IMG/VR virus record: IMGVR_UViG_3300025096_000009
Coordinates: 1-64,000 of that record
DNA: 64,000 bases
Source: a virus
Direction: 5' to 3' (one strand)
Below are positions 12,064 through 38,620 of this stretch, in pieces. Position numbers and translations under genes: made by a program. Below the pieces are notes generated by a model. The model saw nothing but the letters and a program-made list of their open reading frames with translations, ran no database searches and was not told the origin of the DNA. Positions within the stretch are counted from its first letter, which is position 1; the number at the start of each line of letters is the position of its first letter.

Positions 12064-14322
12064 ATGAGTGATACTGCTGTTAAATCTGGTCTCGACGCCA
12101 TTATTAAGTCGGTAGTAAATCGAGATGGTGGAGGAGAGGCCGACACGATGTTGGTTAATGCTCATCTTTCTCAAATGAAAATGTTTGGGATAAGACAAGG
12201 TGTTGAGTTCTATCCCGAGCAAGACAATTTTGGAACACAGAGATTTGATTTCGTTCAACAGGTTATAAAGTTCAACAAACTAGATGCAAGGCTTGATTCA
12301 ATATGGGATAGATTTTTAGCTTATGGAAAAGGACTTTTTTATATAAGACCTACTCAGAAAACTTATCGTCTCTACTGGTTTGATAAAGATTCATATAGAA
12401 CTTATTACACACCAGAAGGTGATTTAGAAGAGGTTGTTATCATATATCCCTATAAAGTTAAGTCTTCTAAGGGGTTTAAGGGTGTTGGGTTAAATACAGA
12501 TAAGCGTTATATGCGTTTACGGATTACTCCAGAAGAGATAGAAGAGTTTCATAGTGAGCAGGAGATAACTTTTGATAATGAAAATTTAGATTATTCCACC
12601 TTTGATAAGAAGGTTCATGAGAACAGCATGGAGTTTATTCCATGTGTTGAGGTCTTTAATAATCCAGACGCTTTTGGAACTGATGGTGCTGGCGAGTTTG
12701 AGTGGTTATCTAGTCAGATAATTGCTCATGATGAGATGGTAAAGAATATTCGTGCAAACTTATCATTCTTTGGTAATCCGACTCTCTTATCTTCACGTCC
12801 GAAGCAAGATATTATTGAACAAAATTCGGATGATGCAGCTCAAAGACCTAGCATTTCAAGTCAATCTGGTTTTCAATCAAACTTTGATCTTTCCAGTTCT
12901 ACTTTTAAACAAGATCCTACAACTAGACAACAACCAGGGTACATAGGGAAACCAGGTAGTGGTTACCGTGTGCCTAGAGTTATCGCCAACTTGGAGCCAA
13001 CAGACCGTGTTGGTTTTATTACTCCTAATGCTGTAGGAACTGATCAGGCTCGCTATGCAGAACAGTTAAGAAGTGAGATACGTCTTGCTTTAGGTGGTAT
13101 TGACGACTTAAGTATTACTAATGTAACTGCTACTGAGATTAAATCAGCTTATGGTCGTGTCAGTGCAACTGCCAAGAAGAAGTGTCTCCAGTTATATACC
13201 TATGGTGTTTGTAAGTGTTTTGAGCTAATGATTTTTCAGGAAGAACAAATCTTCCGTAAGTCTCTTGCTTATCAATCAGGAATTAAATATCCGATTCCTC
13301 CAGAGGATCCTGATGACGAAATTTTATATGAGAAGTATATAAAACAAAAAGAGAGATATGAAAACAAATTGCAGAAGGCTATTGATGCTGCTGTTGAGAC
13401 TAAAGAGATTCCAGATGGTGTTGTTGGATTAGCTCCAGATGGTGATAGGACAGTTAGTTGGCGTTGGATGGGGCCCGTTTATGAGGATACTGCTCAAGAT
13501 AAATTGAACCAATCTATCTTCACTAGGAACCTACAAGAATTGGGTGTTGATAGTATAGAAGCACTGAAGTATTTATTTCCTTCCAAAACCGACGACGAGA
13601 TTGCAGGTATGCTTTCTGGTTATCCGTTTAGAATGGTAGGAGAATTACAGCGGTCATATTCTCAACTTATTGACTTAGTCAATCAAGAAATGAGAACACC
13701 ACATCCACAGCAACCGAATTTACCGATGGCTGCGGATCCAAGATTGGACCTCACTCCATTCCTATACCGAACACTCGAATCATTACAGAAGGAAGTTACT
13801 TATGCAGGACGCTACCGTAGCGCCGACCCAATCGGCACCCCAAGTATCCCAGACCCAGCCGACCAGCTACGTGGCTCCAGCAGCCCAGTCAGCAGCCCAG
13901 GCTCCGGTAGTGGGAACATCTCCCCAATGGGTGGGGACCTCCCAGCCGATGGCGGCACCCGTGGCACAAGCGCCGGGCCAGACGGCAATTCCTTACCAGA
14001 ATTCAGTCCCTACAGCGTACAGCTCCCAGGTATCCCAGGCTCCCCAACAGCAGGAGAACCCATACAAGGAGGCGTTCAACAGAGTAGTGGGCGCCCTGAG
14101 TTCACCAGTCCAATTCCCGTTCCAGGGTCAACAGTCTCCTCAGACGCAAGTAATAGACCCGGCCAGTTACGCTTCCCAACAAACGACCCAGTTCGCCAGT
14201 CAGGTAGCTCCGACCTCTATGCCTGGGATCAGCAGCAACCAGGGATACTCGGCCAATTATTCCCAAACTTCAGCGGACAACCTGGAGATAACCGCAGACC
14301 AGCTCCTAAACAACGGCGTTAG
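12064..14322 (+). CDS. Portal protein with long Pro/Gly/Ser-rich C-terminal extension
   Basis: 752 residues, placed between terminase and scaffold/capsid genes as expected for a portal. Residues 1-560 are a mixed alpha/beta body with a long helical region (EKYIKQKERYENKLQKAIDA). From about residue 580 onward it becomes low-complexity, rich in Pro, Gly and Ser. This last part (173 codons) is encoded by DNA that also encodes the start of the scaffold protein in another frame. Typical podovirus portals are nearer 530-600 residues, so the tail is extra. The family is judged from position, length and neighbours. Confidence 0.75.
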   Translation: MSDTAVKSGLDAIIKSVVNRDGGGEADTMLVNAHLSQMKMFGIRQGVEFYPEQDNFGTQRFDFVQQVIKFNKLDARLDSIWDRFLAYGKGLFYIRPTQKTYRLYWFDKDSYRTYYTPEGDLEEVVIIYPYKVKSSKGFKGVGLNTDKRYMRLRITPEEIEEFHSEQEITFDNENLDYSTFDKKVHENSMEFIPCVEVFNNPDAFGTDGAGEFEWLSSQIIAHDEMVKNIRANLSFFGNPTLLSSRPKQDIIEQNSDDAAQRPSISSQSGFQSNFDLSSSTFKQDPTTRQQPGYIGKPGSGYRVPRVIANLEPTDRVGFITPNAVGTDQARYAEQLRSEIRLALGGIDDLSITNVTATEIKSAYGRVSATAKKKCLQLYTYGVCKCFELMIFQEEQIFRKSLAYQSGIKYPIPPEDPDDEILYEKYIKQKERYENKLQKAIDAAVETKEIPDGVVGLAPDGDRTVSWRWMGPVYEDTAQDKLNQSIFTRNLQELGVDSIEALKYLFPSKTDDEIAGMLSGYPFRMVGELQRSYSQLIDLVNQEMRTPHPQQPNLPMAADPRLDLTPFLYRTLESLQKEVTYAGRYRSADPIGTPSIPDPADQLRGSSSPVSSPGSGSGNISPMGGDLPADGGTRGTSAGPDGNSLPEFSPYSVQLPGIPGSPTAGEPIQGGVQQSSGRPEFTSPIPVPGSTVSSDASNRPGQLRFPTNDPVRQSGSSDLYAWDQQQPGILGQLFPNFSGQPGDNRRPAPKQRR

Positions 14323-14848
14323 TCCTGAAAGTATTCAAGTAATTGATCATTTTGGTCCTGACACTGCAGGTATCCTTAATGACTATTCATGTCAACTAGA
14401 AGACGCAGTATCATCTACTCATGGTCAGTTAAATGAAGCAGCAGGTCTACTTCAAGAGCTCTCTCAAGAGCATAGGGTTTACGAAAGAATCCTTACTGAT
14501 CCTGATATTCTTGCTGATTACACTTGTGAGTTCTTCGGTGAAAATGGTCCTTATCCTGTTCCCACCCAGCAGTATGCAGCTCCTCATGGTCAGGCAGTAG
14601 GTCAACAGTTCGCTAATGCTCCTCAGGTTACTGGTCAGCCTAACGTTACTGGACAAGCTCCAGCAGCAGCTCCAACACGCCCTGAGATGCCTGTACCTCC
14701 ACAGCCTCAACAGCAAGGGAACCCAACTGATTTCTGGAATAACTTCGGAAGTGCAGCTGATAGAGACCCACAGAATGCATGGCGTTATTTAAATGCAGCT
14801 CAACAGAGTCCTGAGATCTTCCGCCAGAAGCTTCTGGTAATGGAGTGA
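13802..14848 (+). CDS. Capsid assembly scaffold protein (overlaps portal frame)
   Basis: 348 residues in a different frame from the portal for its first 521 bp. A purine-rich ribosome site (AAGGAAG) lies 8 bp before the ATG and supports internal initiation. The N-terminal 170 residues are Gln/Pro/Ala-rich and probably disordered. Residues 175-250 are acidic and helical (SADNLEITADQLL..., QLEDAVSSTHGQLNEAAGLLQ), and the end is short and basic. Acidic, Gln/Pro-rich proteins just upstream of the major capsid gene are typical phage scaffolds that guide shell assembly and then leave. A hairpin terminator follows it. Confidence 0.72.
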   Translation: MQDATVAPTQSAPQVSQTQPTSYVAPAAQSAAQAPVVGTSPQWVGTSQPMAAPVAQAPGQTAIPYQNSVPTAYSSQVSQAPQQQENPYKEAFNRVVGALSSPVQFPFQGQQSPQTQVIDPASYASQQTTQFASQVAPTSMPGISSNQGYSANYSQTSADNLEITADQLLNNGVSPESIQVIDHFGPDTAGILNDYSCQLEDAVSSTHGQLNEAAGLLQELSQEHRVYERILTDPDILADYTCEFFGENGPYPVPTQQYAAPHGQAVGQQFANAPQVTGQPNVTGQAPAAAPTRPEMPVPPQPQQQGNPTDFWNNFGSAADRDPQNAWRYLNAAQQSPEIFRQKLLVME

Positions 14849-17847: not shown

Positions 17848-18288
17848 ATGTTGTACCAGTACAGAGTCACAGGTGGTCTTGTGGAAGTCATATCAAAACA
17901 TGGCGATGGGATCATGATGTGTCTTGATGCCCAAGATGAAGTTCTTTACGTAGACGAGGGAGATTTAACTCCCCATTTAGATGCTACTAATGAGAAGTTG
18001 CGTACAGAAGAGAGGCTTACTGCAGAGTTAGCAGCTGAAGGAGTAAAGCCTGCTAAGTTAACTACGCGAGAGACATTCCCAGTCGATGTACGTGTCAATA
18101 TTAATAATGCTTCTGCACGTCAAATTGCGGATGCATTACCTGGAGTTGGTCTTAAAACAGCTAGGGACATCAAAGATCTTCAAACTTCTCAGTCTGGAGA
18201 AAAGTTCCAAAAACTAGAGCAGTTGAGAAATATTAAAAGAGTAGATTGGGATCAGATTTTCAAAGAGAACTTAGTCCGAGTAGACTGA
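17848..18288 (+). CDS. Helix-hairpin-helix (ComEA-like) protein in head-completion position
   Basis: 146 residues. Residues 83-138 read as a ComEA-type double helix-hairpin-helix DNA-binding unit: VNINNASARQIADALPGVGL then TARDIKDL and GEKFQKLEQLRNIKRV. The N-terminal 50 residues look like a small beta domain. Such a domain binds DNA backbone without sequence preference. Its place between the capsid and connector genes suggests contact with packaged DNA at the neck, or a head-closure role; this is inference. Confidence 0.65.
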   Translation: MLYQYRVTGGLVEVISKHGDGIMMCLDAQDEVLYVDEGDLTPHLDATNEKLRTEERLTAELAAEGVKPAKLTTRETFPVDVRVNINNASARQIADALPGVGLKTARDIKDLQTSQSGEKFQKLEQLRNIKRVDWDQIFKENLVRVD

Positions 18289-21139: not shown

Positions 21140-21934
21140 GTGTCAAGCAGTAGTTCAAATAAACAGCCATTAATGGTGGATCGTCCGGCAACGGGTTCGA
21201 CCTTACTGACTGTTGCTTCAGGACAATTATTCTCTACAAGTCTTATCCCAACTTCTGTTGGTAATGCGACAAAAATTTTCGACGTTGACTCTGCGTTAAC
21301 TGATACATCTATTAGTGGAGCCTATATAGATGAAATTTGGTTTCGATATTCCAAACGAGTAAAGGAAGCTATTGATGCAAAGTCAGCTACTGCAGGTACA
21401 TATTCTGCTGCTTCTACAACGGTTACGGTAACTATTACTGCTGGACATAATATAGAAGTTGGTCAGGAAGTATTTTTAAATTTCACAAGTTATAACTCCG
21501 GTACTGTACCAATTGATGGTAAGTTTACAGTTTTAACTATTACTTCTACTACATTTACAGCTACGATTCCTAATATTGCTAGTGGAACAATTACAGGTAA
21601 CGTAGATGTTTATGTTCCTATTGATTTCTGTTTCTACTTAGTAAGTACCGGTATACTCACTAATATTAACCAATTTTTCCCTTTATTTGTCGCCAGTATT
21701 GAATCTGTTGCTTCAAAACAGTCTTGCAGTTTGACTATGAAGGAGGTACTTCCTCTTATTAATCATCCTACTGTTCAGTCTGGTGCTGCAAACTGGGGAT
21801 CGGCTAATAATGAGATAGCTCCTAAACAGAGAGGTTTAATGCTTAAGCGTGGACAAGCTTTGTATGTTTCTGCAAGTGGAACTGCGGCATTAACTAACGG
21901 TTTCTATTGTAATGTACAAGGTGGATACTATTAA
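21140..21934 (+). CDS. Structural protein with beta-sandwich module
   Basis: 264 residues, GTG start. Residues about 87-159 form a Thr-rich beta module (AGTYSAASTTVTVTITAGHN onwards, then TITSTTFTATIP) that matches three modules in the next gene. The N-terminus is Ser-rich. It probably contributes to the tail; partner of the following large protein. Confidence 0.55.
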   Translation: MSSSSSNKQPLMVDRPATGSTLLTVASGQLFSTSLIPTSVGNATKIFDVDSALTDTSISGAYIDEIWFRYSKRVKEAIDAKSATAGTYSAASTTVTVTITAGHNIEVGQEVFLNFTSYNSGTVPIDGKFTVLTITSTTFTATIPNIASGTITGNVDVYVPIDFCFYLVSTGILTNINQFFPLFVASIESVASKQSCSLTMKEVLPLINHPTVQSGAANWGSANNEIAPKQRGLMLKRGQALYVSASGTAALTNGFYCNVQGGYY

Positions 21935-21942
21935 AGAGAACA

Positions 21943-24210
21943 ATGCCTTTCGGTGTAGGAAAGTTTGATAATTCATCGAAGTTAAAGTTCGATACTGATT
22001 TTTCAAAAAACATTGATGGTAGTGGAGCTTTTTCTATTACCGAAAGTGGTGGAAGAAGTTATAAAAATAGTGAAGTTAGATTTTATAATACTGATTCTTT
22101 ATGGAGTCGCTGGAGGCGTGGCTATGAATTATATTCTTTAACCCAAAGTTTATTAGGTTCTACAGCTGGCGAAAGACAACGCCGTGGAGATTATCGTTTA
22201 TATTTTACTTTTCAGCAGTTTCCGGGTGTCTTTATACCAGCTAGGATTTTTACTTTTCCTTCTACTAATCAGGAATTAGGGGAACAAATGGTTGGAATGC
22301 GAGACACTGACGCATTTAGTTTTTATGATTATGGTCTTCCTATTCTTGGTGTTAGATATTTAGGTAAGTCGGTAAGTGCTACTTATAGTCAATCAGGTAC
22401 AACATTAGTTGTCACTAAACTAGATCATGGATTATATCCAGGTGAGAGTGTTTGGCTAGATATTTCAACAGGAGGAGGTGTTGATGAAACACTTTTAATT
22501 GTTAGTACTACACAAAATACATTTACTGTAACTACTTCTGCATCAGCTACAAACAATGGGAATGTCACTTATTATTTATCGACTACTTTTGGGGACTCAC
22601 GTTGGACCACTACACGAACTCGCCTTCGTTATTTGCCTACAGAACTTTCTTTCTTTTCAGGCGAACGTTTAGCTGATCGTATTATTGAAAAAGATCCAGG
22701 TCTTGCTTCTACGTATTCAAGGAGTGGGTCTACTGTTACAGTTGTTTGCCCTTCAGCTCATGGTTTATCTACAGGAAATAAGGTTTTTGTTGATGTTACT
22801 AGTGGCGACGTCGCTTCTGGTAGATATACAATTACTGTTACCAGTACTACTCAATTCACAGTAACAACAATAACGAGTGGAACTACGTCTGGAAATCTAA
22901 CAGTTAGTAGATTATTGCGTGGTCGTGATTATAAAAACTATGTTGGCTACACGGTTACAGGACTTGATGCCGCCACAAAAGAAATAATTTTCCAAAGGAA
23001 GGATAGTTATGGTGCAACAACTGCTGATGAAAAAACGTCAACTGTAGTTCCTGCTCATAGGGGTTTTACTATCGGGAGATATTTAACTACTGAATTGCGT
23101 TGGCAATGTTCTTGTCAAGATTTTGCAAGACGTGATAGCTATGACTTATATAGTGATCTACGCAATAAAAAGTTTCCTCGTACTTCAGTAAGGTCTACAA
23201 AACCTGGACAAGTTTTACAGACTGATGGAACATTAAGTGATGAGAGAGATATTCCAGGTACTTTCCGAGATCTCGGTTTTGTAGCTATTAATAATTTTTA
23301 TGAACTGCCTGAGTACGAAGATACGACTGATACTGACTTTCAAAGCTTAATGTATTACCAAATACGTTGGTGTAAACATATTTATGCAGCTATGTTCGCC
23401 ATTACTCATGATGAAGGTAATGAACCTATTAAATTAGCGGCAAAATACACTCAGACTGGTCCAAATATCACTATTAACGTTGATAATCACGGTTTAGAAG
23501 TCGATACTAAGATTGAACTAGCTTTTACAAGTGGAAATGCAGTTTCTGGTGAATATACGATCACTTCGGTACCTGATCCGAACAGTTTCACTGTTATTTA
23601 TCCTTTTAGCGAGTCTGCTAGTGGTTATTGCAGTGTTACTAACCTAAAAAAACATGATTATGTGCGTTCTTGGTTGCTTGAACCAAGTGATAAGCCTATT
23701 GGGGATGGTTTAAAGCGCTTCGAGAAGACTTTTGAGAGAGAAAGAGAGCGTTTAGAAGGTGCTTTTGAATTATTGAAGCTAACTCAACAGAATACACCTT
23801 GGAGTGGGGGTAAAAATGTTACTGGAAACAGAAATCAGCCTCAATCAGTCGCAGATTTTGATCCATCACTTATTGGGATGACTCTTACTGATGGTTTGAA
23901 GCGTGATGCTGATGGCAATTTAAGTCGTAGTGGAAAAGCTGTTAATACTACTAATCGAATGATTACGTTAATTAATAAGTTGTTTAATCGATCTCCAACG
24001 CTGTTAGAAGATATAAAACTGGGTATAGTTGATAAACCTGTTGATGAATATGGTACAAACTTTGAAGCAGGAGTTGTAGATGCAGGAGAATACCTTAATG
24101 GTACTCCTATTGAAGTATTGGCTTCAAACAGTACAATAGACAGTAGTACTTACAGTCCTATTACCGATCAGGATGTAGTTGTTGATTCTGATCTATACAT
24201 TAACGTTTAA
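21943..24210 (+). CDS. Large tail protein with SWIM-like zinc motif and three beta modules
   Basis: 755 residues, comparable in length to podovirus tail tubular B proteins, although no motif proves that. Three related beta modules lie at about residues 146-212, 256-323 and 500-566 (pattern HGL...G..V....TSG...YTI...TFTVT). Between the second and third are WQCSCQDFARR (Cys389, Cys391) and RWCKHIY (Cys477, His479), the CxC...CxH arrangement of SWIM zinc motifs with a long insert. The C-terminal 180 residues are charged and helical (RFEKTFERERERLEGAF). I recall similar CSC...CKH tail proteins in marine phages, function unknown. Confidence 0.65.
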   Translation: MPFGVGKFDNSSKLKFDTDFSKNIDGSGAFSITESGGRSYKNSEVRFYNTDSLWSRWRRGYELYSLTQSLLGSTAGERQRRGDYRLYFTFQQFPGVFIPARIFTFPSTNQELGEQMVGMRDTDAFSFYDYGLPILGVRYLGKSVSATYSQSGTTLVVTKLDHGLYPGESVWLDISTGGGVDETLLIVSTTQNTFTVTTSASATNNGNVTYYLSTTFGDSRWTTTRTRLRYLPTELSFFSGERLADRIIEKDPGLASTYSRSGSTVTVVCPSAHGLSTGNKVFVDVTSGDVASGRYTITVTSTTQFTVTTITSGTTSGNLTVSRLLRGRDYKNYVGYTVTGLDAATKEIIFQRKDSYGATTADEKTSTVVPAHRGFTIGRYLTTELRWQCSCQDFARRDSYDLYSDLRNKKFPRTSVRSTKPGQVLQTDGTLSDERDIPGTFRDLGFVAINNFYELPEYEDTTDTDFQSLMYYQIRWCKHIYAAMFAITHDEGNEPIKLAAKYTQTGPNITINVDNHGLEVDTKIELAFTSGNAVSGEYTITSVPDPNSFTVIYPFSESASGYCSVTNLKKHDYVRSWLLEPSDKPIGDGLKRFEKTFERERERLEGAFELLKLTQQNTPWSGGKNVTGNRNQPQSVADFDPSLIGMTLTDGLKRDADGNLSRSGKAVNTTNRMITLINKLFNRSPTLLEDIKLGIVDKPVDEYGTNFEAGVVDAGEYLNGTPIEVLASNSTIDSSTYSPITDQDVVVDSDLYINV

Positions 24211-32354: not shown

Positions 32355-32846
32355 ATGAAAGCACCAACTACTAATAATTGCTATAATTTTCGAGTTATAT
32401 CGATAGATAAGATTGTAGATGGTGACACAATAGATGTCACTTTCGATTTAGGCTTTGGTATTTGTAAATCTGAAAGAATTAGAGTAGCTGGTATTGATAG
32501 TCCAGAGAAAAGAACACGTAATCTTGAAGAGAAAGAATTAGGAATAGAAGCGAGTGAATGGCTTGAATGTCAATTAGAAGGCGCCATAGCAGGTGATGAA
32601 GATTTAGTGATTAAAACTGAATTAGAAGGAGGTAAAGGTAAATTCGGAAGGCTTTTAGGTTGGCTTTATATTGGCTATCCTGAATGTGAAAAAGATTGTA
32701 AGTGTAATTGCCATCATCAAGTCTCTATCAACGAGACAATGGTGGAAAAGGGATATGCATGGGAGTATGATGGCGGTACCAAATCCAAAGATCTCGAATC
32801 TTTAAGAGAAGTTCGTAGATCTCAGGGTACATTAATTTCTGAGTAA
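32355..32846 (+). CDS. Thermonuclease (staphylococcal nuclease)-like protein
   Basis: 163 residues. VDGDTIDV (residues 21-28), RIRVAGIDSPE (41-51) and GKFGRLLG (95-102) supply the SNase calcium site and the catalytic Arg43, Glu51 and Arg99. SNases cut DNA and RNA. A Cys/His cluster (Cys111, 115, 117, 119, His120, 121) is inserted in the C-terminal part and is not usual for the family. It has a ribosome site AAGGAG and no signal peptide. Likely role: host or foreign nucleic acid degradation. Confidence 0.85.
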   Translation: MKAPTTNNCYNFRVISIDKIVDGDTIDVTFDLGFGICKSERIRVAGIDSPEKRTRNLEEKELGIEASEWLECQLEGAIAGDEDLVIKTELEGGKGKFGRLLGWLYIGYPECEKDCKCNCHHQVSINETMVEKGYAWEYDGGTKSKDLESLREVRRSQGTLISE

Positions 32847-36032: not shown

Positions 36033-36830
36033 GTGCCGAACCTTCATTGGGGATGGGTTTCTGTGGTGTCCAAGAGCCCTACTTGGTTAAAGAAGCGTCC
36101 TGTCGATGTAAGTGATCTTGAGTCCGATGAAAAAGCTGAAGTATGTCCAGCTAGGCCAATAAGGCGCTGTAAAGTTTTAGATCGTAAAAATGACCATACA
36201 CAGTTAGAAACAGGTTTAGGGAAGTGGTGGATATCTGATGAGCATTGGTATGGTTTAACTGATGAGACGCCAGATGTCCCTTATTCAATAGATAGAGATT
36301 TGATCTATTTGAAGGACTTTCCTTACTATTATCAAGAGTCTGATAAGTGGGATGATAGTGCAGTTTTTACATTTTCAATGTGTTTGAAATACCTTAAAAC
36401 ACCTAGTATTAACGGTGTTATGGATTATCTAGATGTCCTTAATAAGCATGGTAAGAGTACTTCTAGAGAGGCAAATATGAAGTCTTTAGTCGAGTTTGGT
36501 AGGAAAGCTACTTTCACATATTCTGCTGATCCTCAAGACGTTAAGGACCAGATAAATAGAGGGTTACCAGTAGCAGCTAGTCTCTTATCCAAGGGTGATA
36601 TTACAAACCCAAATAGAGGAACACATCTTGTAGCTATTACTGGATATGGCGATGGATATTGGTTAGTTCAGGATCCTTTCGGAGAAATGGATCTAATTAA
36701 TGGCTTATGGTCTGATAGAAGTCCTAGGTCTGGTCAGAATGTTAAATATAATTTTGAGCAGATGGATAGACGTTTATTTGCTAGTGGCGGGGCATCCGGT
36801 TGGTGTTGGGTTAATTTCCGAAAATGTTGA
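36033..36830 (+). CDS. C39-peptidase-like protein, probably lacking the catalytic Cys
   Basis: 265 residues. Residues 92-260 follow the C39/papain-like layout: FPYYYQESDKWDDSAVFTFS, then GTHLVAITGYGDGYWLVQDP (His198, Asp214). At the position where related proteins carry the nucleophile Cys, this one appears to have Ser109 (WDDSAVF); the nearest Cys is 117. The N-terminal 90 residues may be an SH3-like wall-binding domain. A cell-wall or binding role is inferred. Confidence 0.55.
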   Translation: MPNLHWGWVSVVSKSPTWLKKRPVDVSDLESDEKAEVCPARPIRRCKVLDRKNDHTQLETGLGKWWISDEHWYGLTDETPDVPYSIDRDLIYLKDFPYYYQESDKWDDSAVFTFSMCLKYLKTPSINGVMDYLDVLNKHGKSTSREANMKSLVEFGRKATFTYSADPQDVKDQINRGLPVAASLLSKGDITNPNRGTHLVAITGYGDGYWLVQDPFGEMDLINGLWSDRSPRSGQNVKYNFEQMDRRLFASGGASGWCWVNFRKC

Positions 36831-37813: not shown

Positions 37814-38620
37814 TTAAATTAGTGACCAGCTCCTCCACCATTTAGTTATTACATACTTATTACCTTTTATTGGAGGTAAAGCTTCGTGCATAGTTTTATA
37901 GTTAGGTTTTCCATTTTGATATAAATTATTCCATGCAAGTAGAAGACCTTGTTCTGGCCGAACTTTTAGATTAAGGCGTTTGAAATAAGTTTCTCCTCCC
38001 TCTTCAACGTCATTTAAGTAAATCAGGGTTGTCCATGTACGTTGCCCCATCCATTCGCAATACACTTGATATTGTTTCTTACTCCTTGGTGGGAAGAAAT
38101 CCCAATGCTCTTTATAATACTGGCCTGGACTATATTTTTGAGCTTGTAAAGCTTCTCCTAAGAAAGGATCTAGCTCCATTAAGTCTTCTAGCTTCTCGTC
38201 TAAATCTAAAATTAACTCTGCTGGAAAGTCATGTAAATCTGCCGTTTCGCTAGTTCTATAGTCAGATGTTAGAGCTGAATCAGTGTCGTTTGCGAGAGTA
38301 GATTTTCTAGTAGATTTATTTATACATTCAATTATGTCTTTGCATTCTCCAGGGGAGAGAAATTCATTATATGCATACACTTGTGTAAAGGGATAGTTAA
38401 GTTTATCTGCCTTTTCTTCTATGGGATTGTCATAGAATGCTCCATAGTTAATCCATTCAGGTTCCTCTTTGAAGTTACACAGTTGAAGTAGATCTTCAAT
38501 ATCTTGATCACTTAGTTCGTAGGCTTCTTTAAAAGATCTTAAGAGTTGTTTCTTAGTAACACCACATAATGCAGATCTAGTAAGAGGTTTGACTAATGAT
38601 GCTAATTCAGAGGTATTCAT
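37814..38620 (-). CDS. 2-oxoglutarate/Fe(II) oxygenase (prolyl 4-hydroxylase-like)
   Basis: 268 residues with a typical double-stranded beta-helix. YRTSE (121-125), HWDFF (His172, Asp174 iron ligands), WTTLIYLNDVEEGGETYF (195-213 region) and HEALPP (His245, third iron ligand), then GNKYVITKWWR with the 2-oxoglutarate-binding basic residue. The N-terminal 75 residues are helical and have no known domain. Such enzymes hydroxylate proteins or nucleic-acid-linked substrates and are common in cyanophages. The substrate is unknown. Opposite strand to both neighbours. Confidence 0.88.
   Translation of the reverse strand: MNTSELASLVKPLTRSALCGVTKKQLLRSFKEAYELSDQDIEDLLQLCNFKEEPEWINYGAFYDNPIEEKADKLNYPFTQVYAYNEFLSPGECKDIIECINKSTRKSTLANDTDSALTSDYRTSETADLHDFPAELILDLDEKLEDLMELDPFLGEALQAQKYSPGQYYKEHWDFFPPRSKKQYQVYCEWMGQRTWTTLIYLNDVEEGGETYFKRLNLKVRPEQGLLLAWNNLYQNGKPNYKTMHEALPPIKGNKYVITKWWRSWSLI

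Follow-up and report, generated by a model that had tools for sequence, protein, structure and literature searches.

The 755-residue protein encoded by the virus record IMGVR_UViG_3300025096_000009 (79,617 bases) contains a real and conserved split SWIM-like motif, in which a CxC pair and a CxH pair are separated by a long insert. With a probability of roughly 0.6, C389, C391, C477 and H479 of this motif bind zinc in a structural role and clamp an inserted subdomain at its base, in an S-EIV1-like virion protein that is probably a tail protein. Zinc as the metal, the closeness of the four ligands, the virion or tail location and the structural role are what we infer. The open reading frame (ORF) lies in the window, which is the whole stretch of 64,000 nucleotides analysed (positions 1 to 64,000 of the record), and its features are listed in Table 1. 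The segments WQCSCQDFARR and RWCKHIY and the four residues named in the preliminary description are all present in the sequence, and the span given there, 23107-23379, is exact: the codon for C389 starts at 23107 and that for H479 ends at 23379. The window has 85 ORFs with a length of 100 residues or more; one of them contains an ordered CxC...CxH at comparable spacing, compared with 0.11 expected from shuffling, and this order arises in 0.01% of shuffles of the 755-residue protein.

Table 1. Features of the zinc-motif ORF and of the gene upstream of it (positions in the window)
Feature	Positions	Strand	Evidence or remark
Partner gene, 264 residues, homologue of S-EIV1 AHV82236	21140..21934	+	Related beta-repeat
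ORF, 755 residues, S-EIV1 AHV82237 family	21943..24210	+	Homologues; synteny with S-EIV1
WxRWRRGxE motif, W54-E62, near the N-terminus	22102..22128	+	Invariant columns
Beta-repeat 1, residues 145-217	22375..22593	+	Cross-matches with the upstream ORF and the other repeats
Beta-repeat 2, residues 254-321	22702..22905	+	Same cross-matches; alignment
C389-S-C391, ligand pair 1	23107..23115	+	Predicted beta-hairpin ends there; strand end in the homologue model
Insert, 85 residues, between the ligand pairs	23116..23370	+	Gap lengths; conserved insert columns
C477-K-H479, ligand pair 2	23371..23379	+	Invariant; predicted helix start in both models
Beta-repeat 3, residues 498-567	23434..23643	+	Contains the PF12195 End_beta_barrel match

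Conservation of the four ligands

Homologues were collected by scans of IMG/VR, which gave hundreds of loci, together with four from bacterial genome bins. Of the 248 distinct homologues, 246 extend to the motif and the remaining two are truncated copies. All four ligands are kept in 246 of these 246, including L202, in which the second pair reads AYCKH with both ligands retained. The ligand codons vary only synonymously (TGT/TGC and CAT/CAC), and both codons are used at each ligand site. Thinning at 90% identity leaves 99 sequences with 25 invariant columns. Four of these columns are the ligands, which are the only Cys or His columns invariant across both clades of the family. The first clade contains the window-like proteins, with about 755 residues and 85 residues separating CxC and CxH. 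The second contains the S-EIV1-like proteins, with about 520 residues and 143-173 residues separating the pairs. The clades are about 28% identical to each other; the window protein and S-EIV1 AHV82237 share 28% identity over 333-486 (E 2e-10), and the motif is kept.

In both clades the WxRWRRGxE motif shows the same invariance as the four ligands. The gene is also present on contigs (L106, L107, L108 and L109) from bacterial metagenome bins, which bear the titles Bacteroidetes, Aliivibrio and 'bacterium'. Because these contigs carry a phage gene, they are probably phage contigs that ended up in these bins.

Relationship to SWIM zinc fingers

The SWIM zinc finger (PF04434) was reportedly described by Makarova, Aravind and Koonin in 2002, and its spacer extends up to about 25 residues. 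In 20 cellular SWIM domains collected from Pseudomonadota the spacer is 4-8 residues, compared with 85-173 in the phage family, so that the insert is indeed unusually long, as the preliminary description had remarked. Comparison with the PF04434 profile, the check proposed there, gives the window protein 11.0 bits (E 0.32), which is below the curated Pfam cut-off of 19.6 bits. PF04434 matches are obtained in 25 of 33 family members, with a best E of 0.066, and none of the members tested exceeds the cut-off. Scores below the cut-off would be expected of a domain that is split by an insert.

The two conserved blocks of the family were therefore compared, with the insert omitted, with the 20 cellular SWIM domains. 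The profile-profile score is 24.4 with a probability of 67%; omission of the insert favours a SWIM match, and the controls were handled identically. In these controls, 150 other segment pairs of the same family score 10.9 or less against the cellular SWIM domains, and only one of 150 permutations, in which the ligand columns are fixed and the other columns are shuffled, attains 24.4. These results indicate that the resemblance exceeds the four ligands and includes their flanks, CSCxD[F/W] and CKH[I/V]xA.

The order of the predicted secondary structure elements is also that of a SWIM domain. An AlphaFold2 model of a homologue, built with 99 aligned sequences, has a pLDDT of 78 and a pTM of 0.78. 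DSSP assigns two strands in this model, 251-254 and 257-260, which lead up to C260-x-C262, and a helix that begins at 408, at C407-x-H409. The model thus suggests a strand-strand-helix arrangement, with a hairpin ending at CxC and a helix starting from CxH. The pLDDT drops to 53-65 directly after CxC, and most of the insert is modelled at a pLDDT above 70. The AlphaFold model of the window protein is poor (pLDDT 54), and CxH is located at a helix start there too. Fold searches, which barely probe the zinc region, give no relative at E 0.001 or better. VIA-align gives Z scores of up to 6.3, which are in the common range, for residues 114-257 against HerA, L3 and ATP-synthase-type barrels; this region resembles common small barrels. 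Profile searches of the PDB give a single match, which was disregarded (E 0.11).

The motif is thus SWIM-like, as supported by the invariant ligand order, the profile similarity and the predicted order of the elements. It is not assigned to PF04434, because the spacer is not short in either clade and no member tested reaches the cut-off. The resemblance proposed in the preliminary description therefore stands for the ligands, the profile and the predicted elements, but not for the Pfam score or the spacer. A search for SWIM domains in the virus's own genome as translated DNA gives no match. Single-sequence Pfam searches miss a SWIM-like finger of this kind, in which a conserved insert separates the two halves.

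Role of the putative zinc site

The best explanation of these results is that the 755-residue protein would be a structural protein conserved among S-EIV1-like tailed phages, probably located in the short tail or at the portal vertex, and that the four ligands would together form a single tetrahedral Zn(II) site of the SWIM type. This site would take up its metal while the protein folds in the cytoplasm of the host. CxC would close a beta-hairpin downstream of a beta-barrel, CxH would open a helix leading to the C-terminal part, and the residues between them would constitute an inserted subdomain. Because the two pairs flank this subdomain, zinc would clamp its two ends together and anchor it to the core. 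The insert contains conserved positions (FP, KPG, RDxPG and P-x-Y-x-D among the 99 thinned sequences), and these positions, together with its acidic character in the window protein, would be more in keeping with a folded insert than with a loop that binds DNA.

E. coli glutamyl-tRNA synthetase contains a SWIM-type 98CxCx24CxH site, in which zinc has three S ligands and one N ligand (PMC4381286). Like the phage protein, in which the site is putative, it has a SWIM-type Cys3His site inside a larger protein; unlike the phage protein, it is a tRNA-binding enzyme with a spacer of 24 residues. This enzyme serves as a precedent for a longer-spacer SWIM-type site within a larger protein. Metal ions in tailed-virus proteins are reported in a study of HFTV1, in which those of the tail fibres and the THP protein are assigned as zinc; the assignment is made via histidine ligands, with octahedral sites in the tail fibres and a pseudotetrahedral site in a predicted deacylase (PMC12494034). 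They are comparable to the phage candidate in this respect, but the passage on them mentions no SWIM finger. In the part of the literature on SWIM domains and zinc in phage tails that was covered, no SWIM-type site is described in a phage virion protein. The motif provides a testable metal site for an unannotated, probably structural protein that is present in hundreds of environmental sequences of S-EIV1-lineage phages.

It is possible, though doubtful, that the finger is mainly an interaction surface, with the helix held by zinc and the basic residues of RR and CKH binding another virion protein, such as the partner protein or the fibres, or a molecule of the host surface. Cellular SWIM domains bind proteins or DNA (PMC4381286), the partner gene is located immediately upstream in 303 of the 305 loci whose flanks are long enough (these loci include repeats of a single contig), and the residues around the site that are invariant without being ligands (Q/D393, R397, R379, K478 and Y481) would be consistent with such a surface. 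However, residues in a structural core would be expected to be just as invariant. The broader proposal that a split SWIM-type finger has been fixed in a tail protein of a widespread aquatic phage lineage, with metal binding governing tail assembly or DNA release, is unlikely.

It is slightly less likely still that the two pairs are separate conserved features that do not share a metal, such as a CxC with a redox or disulfide function and a CKH that independently caps a helix. The separation of the pairs by an insert of variable length and the invariance of many other residues would be consistent with this possibility, but both halves fit the SWIM profile in one alignment, the predicted elements are in SWIM order, and no further Cys or His is common to the clades, which is what a single site made up of all four residues would predict.

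A role in packaging or ejection, in which the site would bind the phage DNA inside the channel of the tail or portal, is improbable. DNA binding is among the roles of cellular SWIM domains, basic residues (R386, R396, R397, R475 and K478) are close to the ligands, and the S-EIV1 homologue has a pI of 8.1. In contrast, the insert has an acidic pI of 4.6 and the complete window protein one of 5.4, and no positive evidence is found for DNA binding in ejection, which the preliminary description had suggested. Its other suggestion, that the site stabilises the protein, is better supported, and here too we infer the structural role.

Genome context and location of the protein

A tblastn search of 50,697 named phage records identifies S-EIV1 as the sole relative of the 755-residue protein; the other rows were dismissed (E 4 or worse). 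Synechococcus phage S-EIV1 is listed with short-tailed phages (PMC7156551). Synteny between the window and S-EIV1 includes the terminase (65% identical), portal-like (53%), major capsid (70%) and connector-like (58%) genes, and continues through the partner gene to the zinc-site gene. The gene that is 58% identical belongs to a family of unknown function and is connector-like in our reading. Homology of the core, shared gene order and the upstream partner place the window protein in the family of AHV82237. This hypothetical protein has the same motif and gene order, but it consists of 527 residues, has a longer insert, lacks the three beta-repeats and has no annotated function.

The zinc-site gene follows the capsid and connector-like genes, and matches to fibre and fibre-assembly proteins follow it in the window. 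This gene order and the synteny with S-EIV1 make it plausible that the protein is located in the virion, probably in the tail. Pfam and PHROGs searches give no assignment for the core of the protein, and PHROG matches annotated as 'virion structural' or 'tail spike' were rejected as its identity, because they are weak and confined to the repeats. The three inserted beta-repeats are present in the window clade and in none of the S-EIV1 clade; the PF12195 match has 36.6 bits against a cut-off of 35 (E 4.6e-9), with its best stretch at 509-554. That the protein is no part of the virion but uses a structural zinc finger as a factor in tail or head assembly is highly unlikely, because, even though fold searches give no significant structural relative, its gene is located among virion genes and the window clade bears phage-type beta-repeats known from endosialidase tailspikes.

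The beta-repeat common to the partner ORF and the zinc-site protein is detected at 21200-21610 with 39% identity (E 3e-9). The portal-like gene (12064-14322) and the next ORF (13802-14848) overlap by about 520 bases in different frames. The extended frame of the latter matches an equally overlapping frame of S-EIV1 (39% over 370 residues), in which the annotated counterpart begins after the portal. A helix-hairpin-helix protein (17848-18288; PF12836, E 6.5e-7) is encoded downstream of the capsid gene and upstream of the connector-like gene, a position that its homologue also has in S-EIV1. Near the tail region, genes for a Staphylococcal-nuclease-like protein, a C39-like peptidase and a 2OG-Fe(II) oxygenase are located at 32355-32846, 36033-36830 and 37814-38620, respectively.
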